Part shown: in pieces, positions 7,525 through 15,781 of the stretch
Layout of the letters: each line of letters starts with the position of its first letter
Numbering within the stretch: the stretch's first letter is position 1
Notes under the pieces: model-generated
Seen by the model: only the letters and a program-made list of their open reading frames with translations
Told to the model about the DNA's origin: nothing
Databases searched by the model: none
Source of the DNA: Bacteroidota bacterium
GTDB lineage: Bacteria; Bacteroidota; Bacteroidia; UBA7662; CANHCV01
Length of the DNA stretch: 64,000 bases
Direction: 5' to 3'
Assembly: GCA_947501265.1 (NCBI GenBank)
Contig: CANMVY010000003.1
Span: 124,001-188,000 of the forward strand
Position numbers and translations under genes: made by a program

Positions 7525-8350
7525 GATCTTTTTTTGATGGGGGAAAAATGAAGAACGAAAAAAAGACGACCAACGATAGCCAAAGGAGGGCAAACAATGA
7601 AAATTTCCATCCGTGAATCCATCGCGACGAGCCCCAGGCGATGATGAAACTCGATCCAATGTAGATCGCCAAACTGTTTTTTCCCAAACGTTTCAGCCAG
7701 GGAAATTGGGGGATGAGTCTTGGGAAAGCGGTGATCGTTCCAAAGACTCCAGCGGCGAAGGTCAAGGAAATTGCCGAAATGGGGTAGTACCATTCCGAAT
7801 ATCCCAAACGGGTGTTGGGCGGAAACGCCAACAGGTACAGACTTCCCAAAAGTCCGAGGGTGAACCAAGCTGCAACACGGGGAAATGCGTTTCGAAATCG
7901 ACCTAATAGGAAGATCAAAAGCCAAGGCAGCGGAGGAAACCAACCTTGATGAAAGAGGTGGGGGAATCCAAACGAAATCGCGCAGGCTAACGCCACTAGA
8001 ATGGCAATGGGATTCCCCCAGGGTTGGTTGAATGGGATGGAAATCCAAAGTCCGATGCCCAAAACATACAACACATCCCATTCTTGGAAAGCGCCGATAT
8101 TCCATCCGAAGAGATCGATGATGACGGCCCAAAAGAGGAGAATGGCTCCTCGGAAGAACAGTTTTTGGGCCGATTGCCGCACCGAATAAAATCCGGCTAA
8201 CCCGATGAAGATGGGCGCCGGCAGGGAAAATAGGAATCGGAGCAACGGTGGGTGAGGGGCGAGGAGGGAACTGCCCGCCAAATTGGCGCCCAGCATCAAG
8301 AAAACCGCGAATCCGCGCCAAAGATCACCGTGAGTTTCTCGCTTTGCCAT
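7517..8350 (-). CDS. DUF1624/heparan-alpha-glucosaminide N-acetyltransferase-like membrane protein
   Basis: 277 aa from the ATG at 8350. It opens with LWRGFAVFLMLGANLAGSSL, the conserved start of DUF1624/YeiB-like acyltransferases, followed by eight or nine hydrophobic segments and a short basic tail. These proteins move acyl groups across the inner membrane onto sugars; a polysaccharide or cell-wall substrate is inferred only. The ATG is three bases from an exact promoter element on the minus strand. An in-frame extension to 8524 would overlap mtgA completely and was rejected. Confidence 0.7.
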   Translation of the reverse strand: MAKRETHGDLWRGFAVFLMLGANLAGSSLLAPHPPLLRFLFSLPAPIFIGLAGFYSVRQSAQKLFFRGAILLFWAVIIDLFGWNIGAFQEWDVLYVLGIGLWISIPFNQPWGNPIAILVALACAISFGFPHLFHQGWFPPLPWLLIFLLGRFRNAFPRVAAWFTLGLLGSLYLLAFPPNTRLGYSEWYYPISAISLTFAAGVFGTITAFPRLIPQFPWLKRLGKNSLAIYIGSSFIIAWGSSRWIHGWKFSLFALLWLSLVVFFSFFIFPPSKKDHG

Positions 8351-8353
8351 GTT

Positions 8354-8361
8354 CAAAGATA
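8354..8361 (-). promoter_or_regulatory. TATCTTTG -7 element, 3 bases before ATG
   Basis: Exact TAnnTTTG on the minus strand with only three bases before the ATG at 8350. The transcript is predicted to be leaderless. It faces away from the mtgA element at 8381-8388. Confidence 0.65.
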
Positions 8362-8380
8362 ACCTTTTCAAAACAATCCC

Positions 8381-8388
8381 TACCTTTG
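8381..8388 (+). promoter_or_regulatory. TACCTTTG -7 element, 5 bases before mtgA ATG
   Basis: Exact TAnnTTTG five bases before the ATG at 8394. This decides the start: an in-frame ATG at 8349 lies upstream of the predicted transcription start. Confidence 0.65.
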
Positions 8389-8393
8389 TCCTC

Positions 8394-9062
8394 ATGTTCA
8401 AGTGGATCTTTCGAATCGGGTTGCTTTTCCTGGTGTTCACCGTTTTCGGCGTGTTGATGTTGCGTTGGATTCCCGTAACGTACACGCCGCTGATGTTCAT
8501 CCGAAGCATCCAATCCCAAACCAACGATAAGCTTCCATCCGGAATTCACCACGATTGGGTTTCTTTGTCGGAAGCCGGCCCCTTCCCAACGTGTGTACAA
8601 GCCACCGAAGATCAGAATTTTTTCGATCACCACGGATTTGATTTCAAAGCAATTCAATACGCTTACGAATACAATAAAAACCACGAGAAAACCATTGGGG
8701 CCAGCACGATTTCCCAGCAAACCGCCAAAAATGTGTTTCTTTGGCCCAGTCGCAGTTGGGTGCGCAAAGGGTTGGAAGTGTATTTCACCGCCCTCATCGA
8801 ATTGCTTTGGGGAAAAGACCGAATCTTGGAAGTGTATTCCAACGTGGTGGAATTGGGGCCAGACATTTATGGCGTTGAAGCCGCTTCGCAACATTATTTC
8901 AACGTTTCTGCATCTTCCTTAAAAAATAATCAAGCCCTCAATTTGGCTACTCTTTTGCCTTCTCCCTTGAAATACAGCCCGATCGATTTGAATCCGGCTC
9001 AGAAAAGGAAGAAAAGTCGTGCAAAAAAGCACCTCAAGAAGAGCGGGGCTTTGAAGTTTTAA
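8394..9062 (+). CDS. mtgA: Monofunctional biosynthetic peptidoglycan transglycosylase
   Basis: 222 aa from the ATG at 8394. One N-terminal membrane anchor is followed by the GT51 glycosyltransferase domain, with the catalytic-Glu motif ATEDQNFFDHHGFD, the second motif GASTISQQTAKNVFLW, and KDRILEVYSNVVELG and YGVEAASQHYF. It polymerises lipid II into glycan strands at the outer face of the inner membrane and lacks a transpeptidase domain, so it is the MtgA type. Length is normal. The basic C-terminal tail (KRKKSRAKKHLKKS) is typical. It is followed 18 bases later by dnaX. Confidence 0.92.
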   Translation: MFKWIFRIGLLFLVFTVFGVLMLRWIPVTYTPLMFIRSIQSQTNDKLPSGIHHDWVSLSEAGPFPTCVQATEDQNFFDHHGFDFKAIQYAYEYNKNHEKTIGASTISQQTAKNVFLWPSRSWVRKGLEVYFTALIELLWGKDRILEVYSNVVELGPDIYGVEAASQHYFNVSASSLKNNQALNLATLLPSPLKYSPIDLNPAQKRKKSRAKKHLKKSGALKF

Positions 9063-9080: not shown

Positions 9081-10202
9081 ATGGAACCTTACGTTGTCTC
9101 CTTCCGAAAATATCGACCCAACACCTTTGAATCGGTGGTGGGACAGGAACACGTAACGAATACGCTGAAAAACGCCATCCTCAACAACCAACTTTCTCAA
9201 GCTTACCTGTTTACCGGTCCACGTGGCGTGGGCAAAACAACGTGTGCCCGAATCTTGGCCAAGGTGATGAACATGGAAAATCCGGTAGAAGCCTTGAAAG
9301 ATGACTCCTATGCAACGGTTGACTTGGATATTTCCATGAACATTTTCGAGTTGGATGCCGCTTCACGAAACGGGGTAGAAGATATCCGCGACCTCATTGA
9401 GCAAGTTCGCTATGTTCCCCAAGGCGGCAAGAAGATTTACATCATCGATGAGGTGCACATGCTCTCTACGGCGGCCTTCAATGCGTTTTTGAAAACCTTG
9501 GAAGAGCCACCGCCGTATGCCATCTTCATTTTGGCAACCACCGATAAACATAAGGTTTTACCAACGATTCTTTCCCGTTGCCAAATTTTCGATTTTAAGC
9601 GCATCCAAACTTCAGACATTACCCATCATTTGGAATGGGTATGTGCGCAAGAAGGGGTGAAATTTGAAAAAGAAGGTCTCCATATCGTTGCTCAAAAAGC
9701 CGATGGCGGACTTCGAGATGCACTTTCTACCTTGGATCAGTTGATTGCTCTAACAGAAGGAGAATTGACTTATTCCAATGTGGTAAAAAGTTTGAATTTA
9801 ATCGACCACGAGCAGTTTTTTGCTGCTTGCGATTCCTTTCTTCAACAAGATGTATCGGCCTTGTTGAATCAGTATAACCAAATTACCGCTACCGGATTTG
9901 ATGGAGCCCAATTCATTGCCGGGTTGGCCGATCACGTTCGTAATTTGCTCCTTTCCCGCGACGCCAAAACCGTTCATTTGGTAGAAGGCAGCGAAGCCTT
10001 GAATCAGCGCTATTTGGAACAAAGTAAGAAGTTCAACTCCAGCTATTTGTTATCGGCTTTGGATCAAATCAATCGTACAGAAACAACTGCCCGAAATGTA
10101 AAAAATCAACGCTTGCACTTCGAACTTTGCCTGATGCGATTGGCCATGTTGCCTTCGGCCCAACGTCTTTCCATCTTATCGGAAGACGAAAAAAAAAATT
10201 AA
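9081..10202 (+). CDS. dnaX: DNA polymerase III clamp-loader subunit, gamma form (zero-frame product of dnaX)
   Basis: 373 aa in the zero frame. It contains the AAA+ core: Walker A GPRGVGKTTCARILAK (about residues 45-60), ELDAASRNGVEDIR, Walker B YIIDEVHML, the sensor and SRC segment TILSRCQIFDFKRI, and domain III ending LHFELCLMRLAML. The four-Cys zinc module that follows Walker A in E. coli DnaX is absent and replaced by a Cys-free loop. The frame ends at a TAA directly after ten A residues (10189-10198), with a last residue pattern DEKKN. This is the equivalent of the short gamma protein. The rest of the expected protein is present in the -1 frame (10199-10849). Confidence 0.9.
   Translation: MEPYVVSFRKYRPNTFESVVGQEHVTNTLKNAILNNQLSQAYLFTGPRGVGKTTCARILAKVMNMENPVEALKDDSYATVDLDISMNIFELDAASRNGVEDIRDLIEQVRYVPQGGKKIYIIDEVHMLSTAAFNAFLKTLEEPPPYAIFILATTDKHKVLPTILSRCQIFDFKRIQTSDITHHLEWVCAQEGVKFEKEGLHIVAQKADGGLRDALSTLDQLIALTEGELTYSNVVKSLNLIDHEQFFAACDSFLQQDVSALLNQYNQITATGFDGAQFIAGLADHVRNLLLSRDAKTVHLVEGSEALNQRYLEQSKKFNSSYLLSALDQINRTETTARNVKNQRLHFELCLMRLAMLPSAQRLSILSEDEKKN
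10189..10198 (+). promoter_or_regulatory. Ten-A slippery run, candidate frameshift or transcriptional slippage site in dnaX
   Basis: The zero-frame codons here are GAA AAA AAA AAT TAA, which contains the A AAA AAA slip heptamer directly before a stop codon. A -1 shift, or one extra A in the mRNA, joins the gamma frame to the tau tail as D-E-K-K-K-L-R-E. Thermus thermophilus dnaX uses transcriptional slippage on a poly-A run, and E. coli dnaX uses -1 ribosomal shifting on A AAA AAG. Only a small potential structure lies downstream (GGAG 10204-10207 with CTCC 10233-10236; AACG/CGTT 10217-10228). A homopolymer sequencing error is the main alternative. Confidence 0.65.
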
Positions 10203-10849
10203 GGGAGAAAATTCATAACGCTACCGTTGGTGCTCCTGCGATTCAGCCTCCAGTTGAAAATTCTGCACCATCACCACCACCACCAGCCCCAGTTTTGGAA
10301 GAATCCAAGCCTGCTTCGGGTTCCGAGCCTCTTCCTATCGCTCCACCTCCTTCGCCTTCTGCTCCTGCGTTGAAAAGCGGTAGTAGTCCCACCTCGGTAT
10401 TTGCCAAAGGCAAAGAGGGATTTTTGAAAAAGGTTAAAGAAGAAGTAAAGAAAATTCAGGAAGAAACGCCCAAAGGTGTCATCGATTCACAGGAGTTTCC
10501 TAAATTTTGGACTCAATTGCAAGTTGCTACCCAGAAAAATGAAGACCCGCATTTGTTGGCACTGCTTCAACGCTGTGAGCCAGAATTGAAAGGCGACCAC
10601 GAATTGGTGATTCCCTTCTTCAATGCCTTAGAGAAAGAAACGTTTGCCGAAAGAAGGGAATGGATGGCCGAGGAGTTTCGACGGATTTGCGGGGTTTATC
10701 CTCAAATTACTTTCGTAGAAAAGGAAGATTCCGAAGCCAAGAATGAAAGTTTGATTTATACGCCAAAGGAAAAATTGGAGTATTTTCTAGAACAGAACCC
10801 GTTGGTTTCTGATTTCATGAAAAAGTTTAATCTCGACGTAGATTTTTAA
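10199..10849 (+). CDS. dnaX: DnaX tau-specific C-terminal region, read in the -1 frame
   Basis: 216 residues open in the -1 frame relative to the upstream dnaX frame. Joined through the A run, the product would be 589 aa, the size of a normal tau. The segment has a proline-rich linker (about the first 60 residues), a basic helix GFLKKVKEEVKKIQEE, a folded domain (FPKFWTQL to FRRICGVYPQITF) and a conserved-looking tail LIYTPKEKLEYFLEQNPLV ending in LDVDF. In tau this region binds the replicative helicase and the polymerase alpha subunit. It has no credible independent start: the open frame reaches back to 10127 only as a shadow of the upstream frame. Confidence 0.82.
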   Translation, partial: LREKIHNATVGAPAIQPPVENSAPSPPPPAPVLEESKPASGSEPLPIAPPPSPSAPALKSGSSPTSVFAKGKEGFLKKVKEEVKKIQEETPKGVIDSQEFPKFWTQLQVATQKNEDPHLLALLQRCEPELKGDHELVIPFFNALEKETFAERREWMAEEFRRICGVYPQITFVEKEDSEAKNESLIYTPKEKLEYFLEQNPLVSDFMKKFNLDVDF

Positions 10850-10852
10850 ACT

Positions 10853-11872
10853 TTAAAAAAGGGAGCGAAACGTTTTTTTTCCACCTGCGTAATACTTCCA
10901 TACCACACTTTTACTCAGGCTTCCTGGAATTTTTTTCAAGGATAAGGGAGTTCCTACCTGTCGTTTTTTCATTTCTCTAGCTTTTTCAAAAAAAGCCCAA
11001 TGGGCACGAACGATTGCCCAAGTGTGTTTAGGATACCCTTCCAGCAAGAACTTAAATCCCGCAACAGCATCGAGAATCAAATGTGCAATTACTTTGGGGA
11101 GTCGCTCCGAGGGGTGAAGGTTTTTCCATAAACAGTAATAACTGTTTCGGAAATTGAGGTAGGTTTTGAACGGCGAACCGTAATTGAGGGTTCCTCCGCC
11201 CAAGTGGAAAACGGTAGATTGAGGAATGACTTTCACGGATGCGCCCACTCGATGCATTCGCCAACACAAATCGATTTCCTCCATGTGGGCGAAAAAATCG
11301 GGATCGAGTTCGCCGGCTTGGAGGTACCAATATCTTCGAACAAACAAGCAAGCGCCACTGGCCCAAAAAACTTCGGTTTCATCGTCGTATTGCCCCTGAT
11401 CCGTTTCAACGGTAGTGAAAATTCGCCCCCGCGTAAAAGGAAAACCAAATCGGTCAATCCAACCACCCGATGCGCCGGCGTATTCAAAATGGGTGCGCTG
11501 TTGATCGGCCAAAATTTTGGGTTGTGCAGCACCCAACTTCGGATCTTTTTCAAAAGCATCGGCTACGGCATCCAGCCAGTGGGGTGGGACTGCTACATCA
11601 CTGTTCAATAAACAAATGATTTCTCCGGTAACCTGCTTAAGCCCGTGAAAATAACCACCGGCGTAACCCGTGTTGGTTTGCAGTTGAACCCATTTGATTT
11701 TTTCGTGTCCCAATTCCTCCACCCATTTTTTGGATTCATCGGTACTTGCATTGTCGATGATGACCACTTCAAAATTGGGGTATTGCGTTTCAAGAACGGA
11801 AGGAAGGTAGGTTTGGAGGTGTTTTACTCCGTTCCAATTTAAAATGGCGATGGAAATAAAAGGACGCGGCAT
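10853..11872 (-). CDS. Glycosyltransferase family 2
   Basis: 339 aa from the ATG at 11872. GT-A fold motifs: SIAILNWNG at the start, VVIIDNASTDES, TGEIICLLNSDVAVP (the NSD is the DxD equivalent), WASGACLFVRRYWY and ARMEEIDLCWR-like acceptor motif HMEEIDLCWRMHRVG. This pattern matches rhamnosyl- and related sugar transferases that act at the cytoplasmic face of the inner membrane on surface polysaccharides. The C-terminal 80 residues are basic and amphipathic, suggesting membrane association. The start overlaps the stop of the GWxTD gene (TGATG), so the two are coupled. Confidence 0.87.
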   Translation of the reverse strand: MPRPFISIAILNWNGVKHLQTYLPSVLETQYPNFEVVIIDNASTDESKKWVEELGHEKIKWVQLQTNTGYAGGYFHGLKQVTGEIICLLNSDVAVPPHWLDAVADAFEKDPKLGAAQPKILADQQRTHFEYAGASGGWIDRFGFPFTRGRIFTTVETDQGQYDDETEVFWASGACLFVRRYWYLQAGELDPDFFAHMEEIDLCWRMHRVGASVKVIPQSTVFHLGGGTLNYGSPFKTYLNFRNSYYCLWKNLHPSERLPKVIAHLILDAVAGFKFLLEGYPKHTWAIVRAHWAFFEKAREMKKRQVGTPLSLKKIPGSLSKSVVWKYYAGGKKTFRSLF

Positions 11873-13368
11873 CAATTGTTGTTAAAGGTGCTCTCTAAAA
11901 TTCGGATGGATTCGGAATCGGCATTCGCCGGACGATCGCTGTCGATGGTGTTGCCCATGGGCGTGGTCCGGCGAAAAATTTCGAGTTTCCACTGCGGATT
12001 ATTGGTTTCGCCGAAAGCGGTGCTGTGCAGCAAACGGTACTCGCAAGCGGCAACTTCCTTGTTGTAGAATAAAAATCGAGCATCCCGTTGCCGCGCTCGT
12101 CCCGGACTCATGCGGTCCACCAGGTTGTAGTACCACCAAACTTCGTAGGGCAGTGCAACTGGGTCGGTTTTGCGTTCGGTTCGCTGATCGGGTGGCCCGT
12201 ATTGCAGGTAAACCCGTCCGCGTTCGGTTTCGTAACCTCGTTGGCGCGGGCAGGCAAACAGTCGATTAACTTCTGCCAATCTCCCGCGGTATTCCACCCA
12301 TCCTTCTTCAGGATTTCCCGGATTTTTTTCCACCCAAAACTGGGCAAAGAAAGGCTTCAGTCGGAAAGTGTCGGCGTATTTCGGATTTACCATTGGCAGT
12401 GCCAAATTTCGTTCTCCTGCACCCATCACCGGTAGAATACTACGGATGTGTTCCCGAACTTGAGCGGTGGTCATGGTGTCAACAAAGTAGGGCAATTTTC
12501 CATCTGAAATGGCTTGTTTCTGAACTTTCTTCGGAAGCGTTCGTCGAAAACCAAGGGCCTTTTGGTCGAGCAAATCGTATTTCATGTTCCTTGCTTCCAC
12601 CACCAATTGATAATTGCCAATGGGAAGGGAATTCAAAGGGATTTTGATGAAGAAGGGAAGAATTTTCGACGTGGTGACTTTATTACGGTTACCGTATTCA
12701 GCAAGGATTTCTTCGGAATTGGCTTTTTTGAGGTAGTAAACAAATAGAATCGAGGAATCGGGAAGGAGCGGAAACGTTTGGTACAATTCGGTGTAGGCCT
12801 GAAGCGTGTCGGATTCTTGACCAAAAATATCGTTGGGGTAGGGGATGATGAATTTTCCGCTCCGCTCCAAAGAGGGATTCGGGTTTTGTGCCGACCGAAA
12901 AAAGAACGGTTGACTAAAAAGCACTTCATCGGTCGGAAAGGTGCTCTCGAACGCGAATTTCGATTGATTTCGGTTGGTGGTGTCGTTCAAATCGGCAATC
13001 GTGATTTCCCCTTCGAATTGTCCAAGTCCGATGGAGTATCGTTCGAAATGGAGTAGCTCCGGCGATAAAATCCAAGCCGATGAAATTCCCAATTGAGCGG
13101 TGTCGATGGCCGGTGACTTCACGTTAAATCCGTCTTTCTGGACGATTTTTCCATCTTTTTTCAATTGGACAAAAACGGTGACTCCGCTTTCGGCTTTTCC
13201 CGAAGCATTCATTTTCCAGCGGAGGGATTCGGTGCGTACCAACAGATGAATTTCTGCCCAATTGCTGCTGCCGTCTTTCTTCAGGGTGGTGGTGCTCACC
13301 AAGGCCTGCAAGGCCCAAACGGGATTCATCCACAAAATCAGAAAAAAGCCCAGTAACTTTGCACGCAT
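11872..13368 (-). CDS. Secreted GWxTD domain-containing protein
   Basis: 498 aa from the ATG at 13368, beginning with a signal peptide (MRAKLLGFFLILWMNPVWA). The N-terminal 300 residues are beta-rich. The C-terminal domain (about 355-480) has VEYRGRLAEVNRLFACPRQR, GYETERGRVYLQYGPPDQR and YEVWWYYNL, the signature of the GWxTD domain found in exported Bacteroidota proteins. Function of the family is not established. Start codon: a TTG nine bases upstream is possible, but the ATG gives a proper signal peptide. This ATG shares the palindrome CATG with the ATG of the divergent wbqC-like gene. Confidence 0.82.
   Translation of the reverse strand: MRAKLLGFFLILWMNPVWALQALVSTTTLKKDGSSNWAEIHLLVRTESLRWKMNASGKAESGVTVFVQLKKDGKIVQKDGFNVKSPAIDTAQLGISSAWILSPELLHFERYSIGLGQFEGEITIADLNDTTNRNQSKFAFESTFPTDEVLFSQPFFFRSAQNPNPSLERSGKFIIPYPNDIFGQESDTLQAYTELYQTFPLLPDSSILFVYYLKKANSEEILAEYGNRNKVTTSKILPFFIKIPLNSLPIGNYQLVVEARNMKYDLLDQKALGFRRTLPKKVQKQAISDGKLPYFVDTMTTAQVREHIRSILPVMGAGERNLALPMVNPKYADTFRLKPFFAQFWVEKNPGNPEEGWVEYRGRLAEVNRLFACPRQRGYETERGRVYLQYGPPDQRTERKTDPVALPYEVWWYYNLVDRMSPGRARQRDARFLFYNKEVAACEYRLLHSTAFGETNNPQWKLEIFRRTTPMGNTIDSDRPANADSESIRILESTFNNN
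13354..13361 (+). promoter_or_regulatory. TAACTTTG -7 element, 5 bases before the WbqC ATG
   Basis: Exact TAnnTTTG located inside the first codons of the divergent GWxTD gene and five bases before the ATG at 13367. A leaderless wbqC-like transcript is predicted. Confidence 0.6.
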
Positions 13369-13954
13369 GGATTTCAAAAATTTCCGTAAAGTTAATCTTT
13401 CCGAACTGCAATGTTTGCCCTCCCTCGTTTTTTTTCAGGAGTGTTTGGGGAGTGATGCCTTGCTGTTGGAAGCCCATGAGTCGTACCAAAAGGGAGGGTT
13501 TCGAAATCGTTACTTCATCCAAACCTCGCAAGGCCCGTTGGAGATGAGCATTCCCCTTCAGGGCGGACGCAACGTTCGGGCCTTGATTCAGGAGGTAAAG
13601 GTGGATGACCGATTGCCTTGGCGTTGGAATCACCTTCAATCCATCGAAACCGCTTATCGTTCTACGCCGTATTACGAATACCTCGCTCCGGAATTGAAGG
13701 AAATTCTCCTGATGCCCACCGATTCGTTGTGGGAATTGAATCATGCACTCCTTCGGTGGGTGTGGTCGGTATTGCGATGGGATAAATTCATCGGGAAAAC
13801 CACCGATTTTTACTTGGATTATTCCGAAGGAAATGTGGTAGATTTACGGAAGAACGCAAAAAAGAAAGAGGGAGAATCTCTCAGTATTCTTCATTATTTG
13901 TTTCATTTTGGTCCTGAATTGGCATTAATATTGGAAAATGAAAATAACGGGTAA
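13367..13954 (+). CDS. WbqC-like family protein
   Basis: 195 aa from the ATG at 13367. The family pattern is visible: LSELQCLPSLVFFQECL near the start, SYQKGGFRNRYFIQTSQGP, MSIPLQGGRN, and WRWNHLQSIETAYRSTPYYE. WbqC-like proteins occur in O-antigen and surface polysaccharide loci and are thought to act in sugar modification or transfer, but the chemistry is unproven. The open frame extends upstream to 13262 only because it runs antisense to the GWxTD gene. The 3' end overlaps the Nif3-like gene by 17 bases, so the two, plus the zinc-ribbon gene, form an operon. Confidence 0.85.
   Translation: MDFKNFRKVNLSELQCLPSLVFFQECLGSDALLLEAHESYQKGGFRNRYFIQTSQGPLEMSIPLQGGRNVRALIQEVKVDDRLPWRWNHLQSIETAYRSTPYYEYLAPELKEILLMPTDSLWELNHALLRWVWSVLRWDKFIGKTTDFYLDYSEGNVVDLRKNAKKKEGESLSILHYLFHFGPELALILENENNG
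13387..13394 (-). promoter_or_regulatory. TAACTTTA, near-consensus -7 element for the GWxTD gene
   Basis: One mismatch from TAnnTTTG on the minus strand, 18 bases before the ATG at 13368 and inside the wbqC-like coding region. Confidence 0.35.
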
Positions 13955-15032
13955 ACATATTGCCGATTTGTTGGAACATTGGGCGCCCCTGTCGCTTCAA
14001 GAGTCGTACGATAATTCGGGCTGGTTGGTGGGCGATCTTGATAGCGAAGTCACCGGAGTGCTTTGCACCTTGGATTGCACCGAAGAGGTGTTGGAAGAAG
14101 CCAAATTGAAGGGTTTTAATTTGATTGTGGCCCATCATCCCATTTGGTTCGGAGGGAAGAAGCGATTGGGTTCCCACTATACGGATCGGGTGATTATCCA
14201 AGCCGTTCAGTGGGGCATCGGCATTTATGCTTGCCACACCAACGCTGATGCGGTAGAAAATGGGGTGAATGCGAAAATCTTGGAAAAAATGGGATTGAAA
14301 AACAGACGTATTTTGAGTCCGCGTTTCGAGAATTTACAGCAATTAACCACGTTTGTTCCGGTTCAACACGCCGATGAAGTTCGGCAGGCCTTGTTTGATG
14401 CCGGTGCAGGTTGGGTTGGGAATTATTCGCATGCGTCGTTCAATACTGAGGGAGTTGGGACCTTTTTAGGTGAAGAAGGGAGTTCGCCAACCATTGGCAA
14501 AGTTGGTCATTTGGAGCGGGTTCAAGAAATGAAGATTGAAGTACTTGTGCCGAAATGGAAACAGCGGGAAGTGATATCGGCTTTGCATCGGGTACATCCG
14601 TACGAAGAAGTGGCCTATTTTTTAACGTCGCTTCAAAATGAGCACCATCAAACGGGCATGGGCATGGTTGGTGAGTTGAATGAGGCGATTTCGTGGGAAT
14701 CGTTCGTTCATTTGGTAAAAACGGAATTCCATGTTCAGGTTGTACGTCATACCCGAGCCAAGGGCGACGTGAAGAAAATTGCCGTTTGCGGTGGCTCGGG
14801 CAGTTTCTTGTTGAACGATGCCATTCGGGCGGGAGCCGACGTTTTTTTGACAGCTGATTTCAAGTACCACGAGTTTTTTGAGGCCGATGGGAAGATCGTT
14901 GTTGCCGATATTGGTCATTACGAAACCGAACAATTTACTTCGGAAATATTTTGTGATTTAATTCAAGAAAAATTTCCTAATTTTGCCGTTCTCAAAAGTA
15001 CCACACGTACGAATCCTGTAAATTACAGTTAA
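13938..15032 (+). CDS. Nif3-like dinuclear metal centre protein (YbgI/YqfO, DUF34)
   Basis: 364 aa. Metal-binding motifs are intact: LIVAHHPIWFGGKKR near residue 55-70, ACHTNADAVENGVN near 95-110, and the C-terminal TADFKYHEFFEADGKIVVADIGHYETEQ. Between the two halves is an inserted domain (about residues 130-230: PVQHADEVRQALFDAGAGWVG to VHPYEEVAYFL), as in the long YqfO type. These proteins form hexameric toroids with a two-metal site; biological role is debated (GTP cyclohydrolase-like or metal handling). It overlaps the wbqC-like gene and shares its last stop base with the next ATG (TAATG). Confidence 0.92.
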   Translation: MKITGKHIADLLEHWAPLSLQESYDNSGWLVGDLDSEVTGVLCTLDCTEEVLEEAKLKGFNLIVAHHPIWFGGKKRLGSHYTDRVIIQAVQWGIGIYACHTNADAVENGVNAKILEKMGLKNRRILSPRFENLQQLTTFVPVQHADEVRQALFDAGAGWVGNYSHASFNTEGVGTFLGEEGSSPTIGKVGHLERVQEMKIEVLVPKWKQREVISALHRVHPYEEVAYFLTSLQNEHHQTGMGMVGELNEAISWESFVHLVKTEFHVQVVRHTRAKGDVKKIAVCGGSGSFLLNDAIRAGADVFLTADFKYHEFFEADGKIVVADIGHYETEQFTSEIFCDLIQEKFPNFAVLKSTTRTNPVNYS

Positions 15033-15781
15033 TGGAAAATACAATCGAAAACAAGCTCCGCACTTTGTACAATTTGCAATCCATCGATAGCAAAATTGAT
15101 CAATTGCAGGTATTGCGTGGCGAACTTCCCATGGAAGTGGCTGATTTGGAAGATGAAGTTGCCGGTTTAGAAACTCGCATTCAGAAGTATGGGGAGGATA
15201 TTCAGGAGTTGAAGAAATTTGTTGCAGATCGCAAAGATTTCATCCAACAGTGTTTGACTTTGAAAACCAAATACGAAGAGCAAATCAACAACGTAAAGAA
15301 CAGCCGCGAGTACGATGCACTTTCCAAAGAGATTGAATTGCAGGATTTGGAAAAGCAGGTAGCCGAGAAGAAAATTCGCGAAGCTTCTGTGCGCATCGAA
15401 CAAAAAAATGCCGAGTTAGAGGGATTGAATTCCATTTTGACTGAGCGTCATAAAGATTTAGAATCCAAGAAAACTGAATTAGATGCCATCGTTGCTGAAA
15501 CCGAAAAGGAAGAAGCAGATTTGAAAAAGGAATCGGATTTGGCTCGCAACAATGTTGAAGATCGTTACTTGTTAGCGTATGATCGCATTCGCACCAAGTT
15601 CCGCAATGGTTTGGCCGTTGCTACCATCCAACGCGATTCTTGCGGAGGATGTTTTAACCAAATTCCACCTCAGGTGCAGTTGGACATTTCATTGAGAAAG
15701 AAAATTACCGTTTGTGAACATTGCGGACGAATTGTGGTTGATCCACGCATCGCCGAGGAGTTCACCGAGACCGCCGAATAA
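15032..15781 (+). CDS. Zinc-ribbon coiled-coil protein (COG1579/CdsZ family)
   Basis: 249 aa. Residues about 1-190 form a long antiparallel coiled coil rich in Glu and Lys. The C-terminus carries two Cys pairs, CGGCFNQ and CEHCGRIVVDP, forming a C4 zinc ribbon. This architecture (HP0958-like) is conserved across bacteria; the Flavobacteriia often keep it directly after a Nif3-like gene, as here. Known members bind nucleic acid or act in translation control, but the role in this group is open. Start ATG overlaps the Nif3 stop. A strong terminator follows. Confidence 0.88.
   Translation: MENTIENKLRTLYNLQSIDSKIDQLQVLRGELPMEVADLEDEVAGLETRIQKYGEDIQELKKFVADRKDFIQQCLTLKTKYEEQINNVKNSREYDALSKEIELQDLEKQVAEKKIREASVRIEQKNAELEGLNSILTERHKDLESKKTELDAIVAETEKEEADLKKESDLARNNVEDRYLLAYDRIRTKFRNGLAVATIQRDSCGGCFNQIPPQVQLDISLRKKITVCEHCGRIVVDPRIAEEFTETAE

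Follow-up and report, generated by a model that had tools for sequence, protein, structure and literature searches.

How could two operons leave a single point of the DNA in opposite directions, with nothing between them to house a promoter? The question is raised by a CATG found in the window (the whole stretch of 64,000 nucleotides analysed here, which sits on contig C3 of G000, a genome of 2.33 Mb from an uncultured member of the Bacteroidota). Direct reading of the sequence places one ATG at 13367-13369 on the plus strand and another at 13368-13366 on the minus strand, the former opening the gene of a WbqC-family protein, the latter that of a protein with a GWxTD domain (Table 1). A first-pass annotation of this DNA had seen in these starts the two strands of one CATG and had claimed that the intergenic space was nil; the coordinates say as much, and the two genes even share 2 bp (13367-13368). 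As the spacer is absent, the promoter of either operon must fall in the coding sequence of its partner. The answer that we propose, as judged from the letters of the DNA, is that two small operons, with their starts fused in one CATG, are probably each driven by a sigma-ABfr-type promoter embedded in the opening codons of its counterpart.

The two genes and their neighbourhood

The wbqC gene comes first in a plus-strand run, wbqC-NIF3-zinc-ribbon. With 91.7 bits against PF08889, for which the Pfam gathering score is 21.3, its product belongs to the family. The minus-strand product reaches 24.2 bits against PF20094, under the curated cut-off of 26.9, and on that score it is GWxTD-like, not a formal member of the family; we call it GWxTD for brevity. 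Our search of the literature on GWxTD and WbqC found no information on function. The WbqC of this genus (13830-13954) is devoid of a segment, Y..QVF..K.GF, which most homologues of the class retain close to the C-terminus.

Table 1. Features of the wbqC/GWxTD junction and related loci in the window
Feature	Position	Strand	Basis or remark
CATG, start codon for both strands	13366..13369		Sequence; identical in 3/3 congeners
WbqC-family protein gene, 195 aa	13367..13954	+	Pfam PF08889, E 8e-26; AF2 model
GWxTD-domain protein gene, 498 aa	11872..13368	-	Pfam PF20094, E 3e-5, sub-cut-off; orthologues in 3/3 congeners
DUF34/NIF3 family gene, overlapping the end of wbqC	13938..15032	+	Pfam
C4-type zinc-ribbon (CT398-like) gene	15032..15781	+	Pfam
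GT2 glycosyltransferase gene, downstream of GWxTD	10853..11875	-	Pfam
Junction stretch, 3 variable sites (13363, 13372, 13375)	13303..13425		Three congeners aligned
-7 element TAACTTTG, predicted wbqC promoter	13354..13361	+	5 nt ahead of ATG; GWxTD codons 3-5
Predicted wbqC transcription start, leader 0-1 nt	13366..13367	+	4-5 nt spacing from F. johnsoniae
-7-like element TAACTTTA, predicted GWxTD promoter	13387..13394	-	18 nt ahead of ATG; wbqC codons 7-10
Predicted GWxTD transcription start, leader 13-14 nt	13381..13382	-	F. johnsoniae spacing
Predicted leaderless ORF starts	18725 (-), 21165 (+), 35250 (+), 56775 (+), 8394 (+), 8350 (-), 24229 (-)		TAnnTTTG 3-5 nt before ATG

Are the start codons correctly placed?

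Translated from the ATG at 13368, GWxTD has the N-terminus MRAKLLGFFLILWMNPVWALQA, which by eye resembles a signal peptide. Three codons further upstream, a TTG at 13377 offers an alternative start; it is missing in the congener G002. The case of wbqC calls for more discussion, as annotated long divergent overlaps have been reported to be mostly the result of misplaced starts (PMC2478687). Were wbqC to begin downstream, at the TTG of 13415 or at a CTG, an ordinary short spacer would separate the genes, the wbqC mRNA would have a leader and the minus promoter would lie outside coding sequence. This would agree with the fact that the N-terminus of our WbqC is longer than that of most homologues of the class, and that several homologues of the order seem to begin four to five residues ahead of the LP motif. 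We nevertheless hold it to be improbable. There is no ATG, GTG or TTG between residues 1 and 17 of the wbqC frame, the next possible start being precisely that TTG, at residue 17 (an ATG at 13411 was discarded, being out of frame). In the AlphaFold2 model, built on 35 sequences with a mean pLDDT of 91.5, strand 1 is made of residues 9-13, so that a start at residue 17 would delete this predicted strand; WbqC homologues of the class start just ahead of it. In addition, a -7 element lies at leaderless spacing from the ATG of 13367, and the published misannotations are overlaps longer than 60 bp, against 2 bp here (PMC2478687). Both assigned starts therefore hold up as credible, and with opposite strands and 5' ends that overlap by 2 bp the two genes make a genuine divergent overlapping pair.

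A predicted promoter inside wbqC's partner

The first-pass annotation had located a plus -7 element, TAACTTTG, within the GWxTD coding sequence and a near-consensus minus element within that of wbqC. Both are where it had put them, TAACTTTA being the reverse complement of 13387-13394. In Flavobacterium johnsoniae transcription starts 4-5 nt past the -7 element (PMC6847099), hence an element 3-5 nt upstream of an ATG has the geometry expected of a leaderless mRNA. A survey of this genome over 544 kb, with genes called by a home-made gene finder, found TAnnTTTG at this distance from 30 of 406 genes starting with ATG, 19 of them at exactly 4 nt; none had it at 0-2 nt, and a second, broad class was found at about 10-39 nt. 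Permuted motifs gave no peak at 3-5 nt in this genome, and the chance of meeting TAnnTTTG 3-5 nt from an ATG, estimated in antisense coding DNA, is 0.0004-0.0007. Over the window as a whole the motif is not enriched (59 matches for 55.9 expected). G seldom occupies either variable position of the genome's -7 element (5% each), as in F. johnsoniae (PMC6847099). The plus element thus conforms to TAHHTTTG, the sigma-ABfr-type consensus, with the support of a genome-wide positional enrichment, and the wbqC mRNA is predicted to be leaderless.

No -33 element (TTTG or TTG) is visible upstream of 13354, and none is clear on either strand of the junction. A clear -33 consensus is also absent when the promoters of this genome are tabulated by composition, and in F. 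johnsoniae the element is described as much less evident (PMC6847099). Among other candidates, promoters of the sigma-70 type were sought between 13200 and 13560 and none was found, and the window has no Rfam match that would place an RNA element at the junction.

The window contains seven more ORF starts preceded by TAnnTTTG at 3-5 nt, predicted to be leaderless (Table 1). Two of these, at 8350-8394, form a divergent pair with a gap of 43 bp, in which leaderless-type -7 elements of both genes stand back to back, so that the two promoters must overlap; a second pair of this back-to-back kind, with a gap of 46 bp, is found on contig C1 (134598/134645). An observation of another nature concerns dnaX, which appears to be interrupted where ten consecutive A precede TTAAG (10185-10205): the zero frame ends at once, after 373 aa, and another frame runs on to 10849. 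Both the A-run and the stop are identical in the congener G002. The arrangement looks like programmed frameshifting or slippage, which would yield a short and a long DnaX.

The minus-strand element

The minus element departs from TAHHTTTG by one change, the loss of the final G. It might then be a chance match, GWxTD being transcribed from another site within wbqC: the deviation affects the most conserved G of the consensus, and the probability of finding TAnnTTT[AG] 6-39 nt from a start, as evaluated in antisense coding DNA, is 0.010-0.016, that is 1-1.6%. We find this rather unlikely. TAnnTTTA is enriched 3.3-fold over background at 10-30 nt before the genes of the same genome, where it is the sole enriched one among the single-change variants tested, and 9.6-fold at 3-6 nt; the site is, moreover, identical across the three congeners. 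Another candidate, AATTTTTG, placed right before the minus ATG, was rejected, since upstream of genes AAnnTTTG shows no enrichment.

Conservation in the genus, the order and the class

The arrangement in relatives, which the first-pass annotation had proposed to check, is strictly kept nearby, the exact CATG and both elements being identical in all three species of the genus that were compared. When the three congeners are aligned, positions 13320-13425 vary at 3 sites, where a 106-bp window has 19.2 on average; windows as invariant as this one are those with starts at 13303-13320 and no others, 18 out of 3054 across 11872-15032. The differences are discreet: that of 13363 is silent in GWxTD, that of 13372 exchanges Asp and Glu in WbqC, and that of 13375 is silent in WbqC. 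It had been suggested that each promoter constrains the N-terminal codons of the partner, and this low variation speaks for a constraint at the DNA level on both N-termini. Coding in both strands extends over 2 bp only and cannot account for it; embedded promoters can. With three genomes, part of this low variation could also be an effect of local recombination.

At a larger scale, WbqC was found in all 21 genomes of the order, and GWxTD adjoins wbqC divergently in 20 of them, the last one (L021) not being judgeable as its contig ends nearby. Outside the genus the spacing, which hinges on the choice of starts, extends from an overlap of 29 up to a gap of 44. It varies between genera, and the exact fusion in one CATG is consequently a trait of the genus, not of the order; G020 might offer a second fusion of this type, with a downstream GWxTD start that is likelier. 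Among 17 loci of the order from outside the genus, which are not independent of one another, a plus -7-like site with at most one change is present upstream of a wbqC start in 15 and lacking in two, and a minus -7-like site precedes the signal-peptide start in six (in G020 via an upstream ATG). In the class, 138 of 149 genomes have WbqC, a count that includes five members of the order, and a GWxTD match was found beside wbqC in one (L092) of the 26 loci fetched outside the order. In three genomes of one other family of the class, f42 (L103, L110 and L112), a relative of the window's GT2 glycosyltransferase lies divergent near wbqC, with no GWxTD match detected between them. Sequence comparison thus confirms that the head-to-head pair is real and conserved in close relatives, and that it is kept order-wide with a varying spacing.

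Such closeness need not have a regulatory meaning. Deletion drift could have fused the pair, with purifying selection keeping the promoters, an explanation to which we give an even chance. Coding density is 0.91-0.96 in the stretches sampled, other compact divergent pairs exist in the genome, and the wide range of spacing within the order fits with this passive compaction as well. What it explains less readily is that 20 of the order's 21 genomes have kept the same pair, against 1 of 26 loci of the class outside it. This suggests that something keeps the pair together within the order, where common descent alone could suffice.

Leaderless spacing across the lineage

We counted -7 sites by their distance from any ATG in frame, using our home-made gene finder and a 3-5 nt window set after the peak of our own genome had been seen, in seven genomes of the order and in 12 genomes of eight other families, the latter chosen for their long contigs, not randomly, at 100 kb each. 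In the order, 76 of 236 sites fell at 3-5 nt; the genomes from other orders of the class had 14 of 149 there (Fisher p 1.3e-7, pooled counts treating sites as independent). Without our own genome, 36 of 117 remain (p 1.3e-5) in the other six of the order, G003, G006, G009, G011, G018 and G020. Considered genome by genome, the leaderless fraction is 0.26-0.75 in the order and 0-0.30 outside (Mann-Whitney p 8e-4; 7 versus 11 genomes, G127 having been dropped from this test with zero -7 sites). A stricter first count had given 57 of 183 in the order versus 6 of 68 in eight outside genomes.

These figures may be compared with transcript maps of model species. Leaderless mRNAs represent 5.5% in F. 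psychrophilum, leaders of less than 10 nt 3.7% in Bacteroides thetaiotaomicron, and leaders of 10 nt or less 13% in F. johnsoniae (PMC6847099). A survey of leaderless genes published in 2011 detected only Pribnow-like promoters, as its text has it, and might undercount Bacteroidetes (PMC3160421), and a paper of 2017 mentions earlier work in which their leaderless fraction was high (PMC5397173), a figure that finds no support in the transcript maps of the species covered. What we predict shares with the known leaderless mRNAs of Bacteroidota a start at the AUG and a TAnnTTTG promoter 4-5 nt upstream; it differs in that they are a minor class in mapped species, whereas here they would correspond to about one third of the recognisable -7 sites, by prediction only. 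It appears, from promoter spacing, that one lineage of Bacteroidota uses leaderless mRNAs several times more than model species do; no report of such a leaderless-rich lineage was found in the open-licence literature.

How the junction would operate

If both promoters are used as predicted, transcription of wbqC would start at the ATG or one base earlier, making a leaderless mRNA, and that of GWxTD would start at 13381-13382, with a leader of 13-14 nt. With each promoter inside the partner gene, the two would face each other, their predicted starts about 15 bp apart, and each polymerase, having started inside the partner gene, would cross the shared CATG and the opposing promoter, the first 15-17 nt of both mRNAs being complementary. 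A spacer of zero length would be workable because a leaderless wbqC needs no leader. The footprint of RNA polymerase extends from about -40 to +20. The two footprints would overlap in this setting, which makes simultaneous open complexes unlikely. That the promoters exclude each other, as the first-pass annotation thought probable, is therefore sterically plausible with facing predicted starts so close together, and a strong promoter on either side would make competition between polymerases likely, without any regulatory role being required.

One may go further and ask whether the facing promoters and complementary 5' ends are a regulatory switch that lets only one of the two operons be expressed at a time. 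The facing starts would be suited to this role, and both the retention of a tight divergent pair throughout the order and the strong conservation of the junction could be understood in this way. We regard it as doubtful: the precise geometry is not kept, since spacing differs between genera, and the WbqC and GWxTD proteins show no obvious functional opposition. Five bidirectional promoters of Escherichia coli are reported to have a basal transcription too weak for competition, which may appear once transcription increases (PMC12825309). The interpretation that we started from is thus partly supported, its anatomy being right and mutual exclusion being plausible, and to it we add a predicted leaderless wbqC mRNA, a face-to-face promoter geometry and an order-wide conservation of the pair.

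Rarity and relation to known systems

Divergent overlaps require that two start regions and two promoters be accommodated in a single stretch, which makes them rare, and they are strongly under-represented among prokaryotes. In 58 prokaryotes, 331 were counted for 12737 co-directional overlaps, and 274 of the 331 are at least 5 nt long, which leaves 57 shorter ones (PMC2174442); they account for about 1% of 42,055 overlaps in another survey (PMC2478687). In the 544 kb of our genome, a mechanical count gave shared-CATG starts in 4 of 60 divergent pairs, and in the other three inspection of the N-terminus points, in our judgement, to a downstream start as likelier. Our pair resembles divergent overlapping genes in sharing sequence between the 5' ends of oppositely oriented genes; its particularity is an overlap made up precisely of the two ATGs that a single CATG contains, flanked on either side by a candidate sigma-ABfr promoter. 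The accessible portions of the literature on divergent overlaps yielded no case of such a fusion with flanking sigma-ABfr promoters.

With bidirectional promoters of the type described by Warman and Grainger the locus would have in common overlapping footprints, with which opposed polymerases could not bind together. Those promoters, however, have one shared -10 and starts that diverge, mostly 18 bp apart (PMC12825309), whereas here two separate -7 elements, 25 bp apart, have predicted starts that converge, which led us to discard a shared bidirectional promoter. The excludon of Listeria is likewise based on a transcript antisense to the start of the divergent neighbour, but its antisense leader is very long and covers whole genes (PMC4179725), when the complementarity predicted here is of some 15-17 nt; a longer transcript might still issue from some other promoter. 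The locus is well supported as a rare, conserved architecture, not categorically new, its kind being that of divergent overlapping genes.

Putting these elements together, one could conceive that roughly one in three main-sigma promoters of the order is leaderless, that leaderless initiation let divergent operons fuse at one CATG, and that face-to-face promoters, admitting one polymerase at a time, made of the junction a minimal switch between a secreted-GWxTD operon and a wbqC-NIF3 operon; we offer this complete scenario as a tentative one, which may well fail in some of its parts. Whatever its fate, the junction is a concrete and conserved example of such an arrangement, which comes with a reason for its viability: no leader is needed. 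To our knowledge, the phylum Bacteroidota does without Shine-Dalgarno leaders, and a leaderless-rich lineage within it would therefore make the question of how translation is initiated there directly testable.
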